A stretch of 43,027 bases of DNA, taken from Pseudomonadota bacterium. Lineage in GTDB: Bacteria; Pseudomonadota; Alphaproteobacteria; Caulobacterales; Caulobacteraceae. Location: the NCBI GenBank assembly GCA_021816155.1, contig JAKAZA010000016.1, forward strand, positions 1-43,027, in the 5' to 3' direction. Both the position numbers and the translations under genes were made by a program. Below are positions 3,758 to 10,130 of this stretch, piece after piece. The notes beneath the pieces are model-generated. The model saw only the letters and a program-made list of their open reading frames with translations. It was not told where the DNA came from and made no database searches. Numbering within the stretch: the first letter of the stretch is position 1; every line of letters begins with the position of its first letter.

Positions 3758-4390
3758 ATGAGCTTTCTTCCGATACGGCGGGCGGTGATCGCGGCCGCGG
3801 CCGCCGCGCTCGCCGTCGCGACATTCGCGGGGCCCGCACTCGCCGACGCGGCCCGGGACGGTTTGATCTCGCGCGCCGTGGGCTACCTCGACGGCGTCAA
3901 CGACGTGAAGGCCCGCTTTGTCCAGAGCAACGCCCGCGGCGAGGTCGCGGAGGGCACCGTCTATCTGGCGCGGCCTGGCCGCGCGCGCTTCGAGTACGAT
4001 GCGCCGGCGGGTCTGCTGATCACGTCCGACGGGAAGACCGTGGCGATCTACAACACCCGCCTGAAGAGCGTGCAGCGGGTGTCGCTCGCCTCGACGCCGC
4101 TCGCGGTGTTCCTGGCCGAGCACATCCGCCTTGACCGTGGCGCCCACGTGACGCGCGTCGACCATCAGCCCGACGGGTTCTCGATCACGGCGCGCAATGA
4201 CCGCAGCCCGGCTGGCGGCGAGATCACGCTCTTCTTCGATGACCACCCGTTGCGGCTCGCCGGATGGACGATCGTCGACGCCCAGGCGCGCGTGACGCGC
4301 GTATCGCTGGGGCCGCTGACGCCATTCACCCCAACCGCGGCATTCTTCAGTCAGGGCCCGCCGCCGCCGGGGGGTGTGACACGCTGGTGA
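3758..4390 (+). CDS. lolA: Outer-membrane lipoprotein carrier protein LolA
   Basis: Signal peptide, then LolA-like VNDVKARFVQSNARGEVAEGTVYLARPGRARFEYDAPAGLLITSDGKTVAIYN. Confidence 0.88.
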   Translation: MSFLPIRRAVIAAAAAALAVATFAGPALADAARDGLISRAVGYLDGVNDVKARFVQSNARGEVAEGTVYLARPGRARFEYDAPAGLLITSDGKTVAIYNTRLKSVQRVSLASTPLAVFLAEHIRLDRGAHVTRVDHQPDGFSITARNDRSPAGGEITLFFDDHPLRLAGWTIVDAQARVTRVSLGPLTPFTPTAAFFSQGPPPPGGVTRW

Positions 4391-4415
4391 CAATCAAGCA
4401 GAACCAACCCGCGGC

Positions 4416-4446
4416 TTGACTTTCGTGGTCGGGAGTTGCATATATA
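4416..4446 (+). promoter_or_regulatory. Sigma70-type promoter in the lolA-xth intergenic region
   Basis: TTGACT (4416-4421), then CATATA (4439-4444, 17-nt spacer) or TATATA (4441-4446, 19-nt spacer); AT-rich against the GC-rich background. Confidence 0.65.
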
Positions 4447-4451
4447 CCACT

Positions 4452-4570
4452 ATCGCGGCGGATCACCCGACCTGAGCCGCGCGAACCGTGCCGGAACCAA
4501 TCCCCTCCCGGCGGCGGCAAGAGAGACGACTAGCCCGGGCGCGGAAACAGCGTCCGGGCTCTTCTTTTTG
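4452..4570 (+). ncRNA. Candidate small RNA (or structured xth leader), about 120 nt
   Basis: Flanked by promoter and strong intrinsic terminator; predicted hairpins GCGGC..GCCGC and GCCGG..CCGGC with C-rich loops (ggatcacccgacctga; aaccaatcccctcc); no plausible coding. Confidence 0.6.
4532..4569 (+). terminator. Rho-independent terminator
   Basis: AGCCCGGGCGC-GGAAACA-GCGTCCGGGCT (11-bp stem, one G-T pair), then CTTCTTTTT. Confidence 0.85.
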
Positions 4571-4585
4571 CGCTACCACGCTTCG

Positions 4586-5392
<807 letters not shown>

Positions 5393-10011: not shown

Positions 10012-10036
10012 ATACTCTGGGCGGGCTGGAAGCGGT

Positions 10037-10130
10037 GGAGACCGGCAGACGACCCGGAGCAAAACTCGTTACGGCTGCTTCCTTCCGGACCTGACCGGGT
10101 TGGCGAGGCCTCCGCCCATCGCCGATCTCC
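10037..10130 (-). ncRNA. ffs: Signal recognition particle RNA, small bacterial (4.5S) type
   Basis: Plus strand has GGCTGCTTCCTTCCGGACCTGACCGGGTT, complement of the universal AGGTCAGGTCCGGAAGGAAGCAGCC core; terminal helix GGAGACCGG / CCGATCTCC; next to dnaX. Ends approximate. Confidence 0.93.

Follow-up and report, generated by a model that had tools for sequence, protein, structure and literature searches.

The closest described system is RusT (CCNA_R0199) of Caulobacter crescentus, an Hfq-bound, trans-acting small RNA (sRNA) of 118 nt with four stem-loops, encoded between lolA (CCNA_03820) and xth (CCNA_03821) (mBio 2024, PMC11005374). The level of RusT rises on iron chelation and on zinc, NtrX occupies the rusT promoter and represses the sRNA, and RusT lowers mRNA levels for TonB-dependent receptors and for further transporters (PMC11005374). 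Pairing uses the loop of the second hairpin (seed nt 45-57, including C53, the residue changed in the C53G mutation), and Hfq binding, shown only in C. crescentus, involves stem-loop 3 (SL3) in the nt 73-84 region (PMC11005374). Orthologs have been reported in Caulobacteraceae near C. crescentus, with the published alignment covering the genus Caulobacter (PMC11005374). Like RusT, RyhB-type sRNAs respond to iron starvation and act via base pairing (PMC11005374), but RyhB is under Fur control and RusT under NtrX control, and no sequence relation between them is claimed.

The window analysed here, a stretch of 43,027 nt from a genome of the Caulobacteraceae, carries on its + strand lolA (outer-membrane lipoprotein carrier, 3758-4390; open reading frame (ORF) with a Pfam LolA match, E 3e-25) and, downstream, xth (exodeoxyribonuclease III, 4586-5392; ORF with a Pfam Exo_endo_phos match), and the ORF calls and Pfam set the bounds of an intergenic sRNA gene on the same strand, with lolA stopping at 4390 and xth starting at the ATG at 4586. 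A sequence-only reading of this DNA had proposed an unannotated RNA element here, with about 80 nt of hairpins in a roughly 120-nt RNA; fold, conservation and synteny confirm a discrete RNA gene, the size of which we correct to about 118 nt, with ends at 4452 and 4569 inferred from the position of promoter and terminator. Within this putative transcript, stem-loop 1 (SL1, 4453-4484) precedes stem-loop 2 (SL2, 4486-4517), the predicted loop of which (4495-4507) holds AACCAAUCCCCUC and exposes UCCCCUCCC; the seed AUCCCCUCCCGG (4500-4511), an anti-Shine-Dalgarno stretch, includes the equivalent of RusT C53. A linker, GAGAGAC(G)AC (4520-4532), corresponds by position and conservation to nt 73-84 of RusT, where Hfq binds, and the intrinsic terminator (4532-4569) comprises an 11-bp stem (4532-4560) with CTTCTTTTT after it.

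Folding of 4440-4586 gave z = -2.8, with none of 200 shuffles as stable, and folding of the inferred transcript (4452-4569) gave z = -2.5, with 5 of 200 shuffles as stable. SL1, SL2 and the terminator are supported in the window's fold, in which SL3 was not clearly recovered. As a terminator scan of 2.4 kb found two terminator-like sites against 1.1 expected, the terminator was judged by its stem length and conservation rather than by this count. A sigma70 consensus scan of the window region returned no promoter at lolA-xth, because the -35 element TTGACT (4416-4421) has ATATAT 18 nt after it. Nearly all relatives, however, carry a TTGAC-type -35 element at the equal place and, at fixed spacing, an AT-rich -10 element inside a palindrome, and it is this conservation that makes the promoter convincing where the single sequence is not; the sigma70-like promoter read from the sequence thus gains from the relatives a standing that the window alone did not give it. 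Assignment to GsrN, a further sRNA named in that reading, would call for related sequence and for a promoter of the sigmaT type; the promoter of the element is of TTGACT/ATATAT form.

Conservation was assessed in 80 fetched Caulobacteraceae xth loci, 81 with the window, and in all 81 AUCCCCUCCCG, which includes the pairing residue equivalent to C53, occurs exactly once upstream of xth. Across 49 non-redundant sequences, 98.7% of paired cells in SL2 and the terminator are kept (98.5% of cells are paired in SL2), and the two together hold 47 compensatory cells compared with 10.6 in shuffles, a signal that was destroyed when the partner strand was slid; stem covariation in Caulobacterales lolA-xth regions had been named beforehand as a check on the element. 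The compensatory changes lie in the terminator, where eight of nine consensus pairs carry them (49 sequences), upholding the strong 11-bp stem (4532-4560) that had been proposed; SL2 is nearly invariant, so that the evidence for it is conservation and not covariation. SL1 shows little sequence conservation, yet its hairpin folds in every sequence (mean z -2.7 for 53 sequences, of which 42 reach p<=0.05 on their own), although, the sequences being related, neither the SL1 nor the covariation counts represent independent events. Two C-rich-loop hairpins had been predicted, of which the SL2 loop (4495-4507) proved conserved and the SL1 loop sequence did not. The same alignment bears on whether the locus is a small coding region: a frame from a TTG at 4436 is open into xth in the window, but relatives differ by one and two nucleotides in the length of loop and linker, which breaks the frame, and the stem changes are compensatory, such that we attach almost no probability to a coding function.

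A covariance model (R1) built from Caulobacteraceae sequences matches the window, which itself contributed to the model, at E 1e-16; at E <= 5.1e-6 it gives matches in 99 of 149 Caulobacteraceae genomes. Weak R1 matches (about 25-33 bits) were left out as evidence, and a plain DNA search of relatives was too noisy past E 1e-5.

On the basis of synteny, length, sequence match to published RusT and the covariance model, the lolA-xth element is very probably the RusT sRNA of this Caulobacteraceae genome. The order lolA, sRNA, xth on one strand is common to the window and the C. crescentus RusT locus, the seed-bearing second hairpin and the terminator are alike, and the RNA measures 118 nt in C. 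crescentus and a median of 119 nt in 80 measurable loci. Two of the aligned loci are strains of the published RusT alignment (L101, C. zeae 410; L108, C. radicis 695); the fetched loci include congeners of C. crescentus NA1000, whose own sequence is absent from them. The window copy differs from RusT in belonging to another GTDB genus, in its diverged SL1, in its loop (AACCAAUCC as against the usual AACCUAUCC) and in its weaker palindrome, GTTGC/ACCAC. Gene, structure, conservation, synteny and orthology are observed here. The sequence-only reading had held the element not assignable to a known family, which the match to RusT overturns. RusT is already known, and both the genome annotation and Rfam miss the window copy: Rfam 15 at gathering threshold, a scan that had been proposed as a check, offers no family for the element, and the description lies instead in the literature. 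The sole Rfam match in the window is the bacterial small SRP RNA (RF00169, 56 bits) at 10036-10128 on the - strand, and BLAST in plasmids returned none. Among open-access papers on the lolA-xth locus or related alphaproteobacterial RNAs only RusT was found; other papers could describe the wider family.

The best sub-threshold Rfam match is to suhB, at 11.5 bits where the cut-off is 41, and membership of the mmgR/suhB (alphaR8, Sis) family has accordingly to be weighed. This family (RF00519; SisA-D in Caulobacter) has in common with the element a CCUCCC anti-Shine-Dalgarno stretch, a link to Hfq and a terminator, but occupies other loci with another architecture: the AlphaR8 10-mer is single-stranded downstream of a weak hairpin and not in an apical loop, and a true member scoring 56.9 bits lies elsewhere in the genome (G000 C17:318-391). 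We therefore regard membership as highly improbable; of the suhB/MmgR likeness read earlier, the CCUCCC motif stands and the rest does not. The contig of the true mmgR/alphaR8 sRNA (L261) also has a TonB receptor gene at 2131.

To follow RusT beyond the Caulobacteraceae, a hairpin-constrained pattern search was used alongside a class-wide R1 run, the seed alone being too short; about half of the pattern matches have neither lolA nor xth nearby and look like chance. Downstream of lolA, these searches yielded loci in which CCGG-N-TCCCCTCCCGG is accompanied by a terminator and preceded by TTGCCCCCCCGCTTGC; ten of them, from outside Caulobacteraceae, served to build a second covariance model (R2). 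At E 1e-4, R2 matches 34 of 385 genomes across the class; within the order it matches 35 of 60 at E 1e-3, with members of each of the four other families sampled among them. R2-type sRNAs occur in several further families of the class as well, and the model weakly picks the RusT place itself in two genomes (G020 and G072). Gene order was read at 44 loci, including the ten R2 training loci, with lolA upstream in 34, xth or a conserved unnamed gene downstream in 35 and either in 39; among the 34 non-training loci, 30 have lolA upstream and/or xth or the conserved gene downstream. As the R2 model did not use gene order, this synteny constitutes independent support for common descent. A conserved gene for a protein of ~200 aa, with no Pfam match, lies between sRNA and xth outside Caulobacteraceae (L124:1641-2240, L127:1742-2365).

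Most homologs outside Caulobacteraceae carry a C7 loop (CCCCCCC) in SL1 plus UCCCCUCCC in SL2. In a few low-scoring, tentative loci (L211-L213) the core is changed to a GGUUCCCC type, although L211 and L213 keep the synteny. None of 28 related loci scanned matches an Rfam family, and RusT-like sRNAs downstream of lolA outside Caulobacteraceae, mostly with the second C7 loop, are absent from Rfam (L184-L227, motif near position 1560 after orientation). We consider it probable that an ancient and so far uncatalogued family of alphaproteobacterial sRNAs is fixed downstream of lolA, with RusT as its Caulobacteraceae branch, that outside Caulobacteraceae this family usually bears two C-rich loops, and that control by the -10 palindrome is specific to the window's order; since relatives outside usually carry both loops, one of the two sites for pairing may have been lost in Caulobacteraceae. 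Compared with the RusT paper, these sequence comparisons suggest as new the depth of the lolA-linked sRNA family over several alphaproteobacterial families and the order-wide palindrome.

Within the window's GTDB genus, strong R1 matches occur only in this genome and G009 among fifteen relatives sampled. In the other members, where placeable, 0 to 137 nt separate the lolA stop from the xth start, with no seed in between; a few relatives were unmeasurable in this survey, one is without lolA beside xth, and G004 is without an xth match. Most genomes of the genus lack RusT and have lolA and xth almost side by side (L141-L155, from the window's genus or family), and this loss indicates that RusT is dispensable in nature.

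These neighbourhoods bear directly on the proposal that the element is a transcription-attenuating leader, in which reading of xth would depend on the terminator. The T-tract stops 16 nt ahead of the xth ATG and no other xth promoter was recognised between them, as a leader would have it, but a conserved anti-terminator was not found, invariance falls on a loop rather than on a stem switch, and the distance from seed to xth ATG ranges from 86 to 184 nt in relatives. In addition, the next gene was found to be unrelated, and not xth, in many homologs outside Caulobacteraceae, most of the window's genus retains xth while lacking the element, and RusT acts in trans (PMC11005374). Because many homologs precede another gene and genomes that lost the sRNA still keep xth, attenuation of xth is very unlikely, and the leader entertained in the sequence-only reading fails on conservation and synteny; partial read-through into xth may occur. 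With just 16 nt (4570-4585) between T-tract and ATG, transcription of xth would involve read-through or an unrecognised promoter.

The RusT promoter is distinguished by the palindrome GTTGC-ATATAT-ACCAC (4435-4450, + strand) around the -10 element (4440-4445), which scores 8/10 against GTGGC-N6-GCCAC. A score of >=8/10 is reached in 73 of the 80 loci with enough upstream sequence, and against a slightly degenerate consensus 13 of 15 loci from four other families of the order reach 9 or 10, compared with 1.4% of shuffles; outside the order scores equal those of shuffles, with no extension past it. This order-wide palindrome is a candidate NtrX operator. The other NtrX target named in the RusT paper is the ntrY promoter (PMC11005374), and in 23 of 25 genomes, versus 4.6% in shuffles, ntrY is preceded by GTKG-N9-CAC, which fits the core of the rusT palindrome, leading us to hypothesise that the two motifs are identical. 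A separate motif, CAAC-N6-GTTG, is also present in the ntrY region. Published NtrX motifs, CAAN2-5TTG in Brucella/Sinorhizobium and GCAN9TGC in Rhodobacter, both differ from the rusT palindrome, and for this reason the naming of an NtrX operator is one that we infer. About 40-70 nt upstream of ntrY, Caulobacteraceae conserve CAAC/CCAC-N6-GTTGA-N8-GCAC (L228-L252), a possible site of NtrX autoregulation.

Transferring the mechanism from C. crescentus, the element would act as a trans-acting anti-Shine-Dalgarno sRNA with Hfq, and the regulator, signal and targets in this genome would follow by the same analogy. RNA polymerase would initiate near 4452, at a promoter in which a palindromic repressor site, presumably for NtrX, encloses the -10, and transcription would end at the terminator near 4569. 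Hfq would hold the free RNA near its third segment whilst the SL2 loop presents UCCCCUCCC for pairing with G-rich ribosome-binding regions, mainly those of TonB-dependent receptors and other envelope transporters, the expression of which would be lowered when iron is short. The trans-acting sRNA with a C-rich loop pairing to Shine-Dalgarno regions that was proposed from the sequence comes close to what experiments on C. crescentus RusT established (PMC11005374). The targets may be another matter: the genome has six matches to the TonB receptor plug domain, against >60 receptors in C. crescentus (PMC11005374), and at the six corresponding gene starts no seed-duplex energy was clearly better than shuffles. 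TonB-receptor targets are on that account unproven in this genome and, given the six receptors as well, the target set may differ here.

The order-wide palindrome offers a testable candidate NtrX site at a point where reported NtrX motifs disagree between genera. If the wider family is true, an iron sRNA of one genus would become a deeply conserved regulator, testable in several unrelated alphaproteobacteria.
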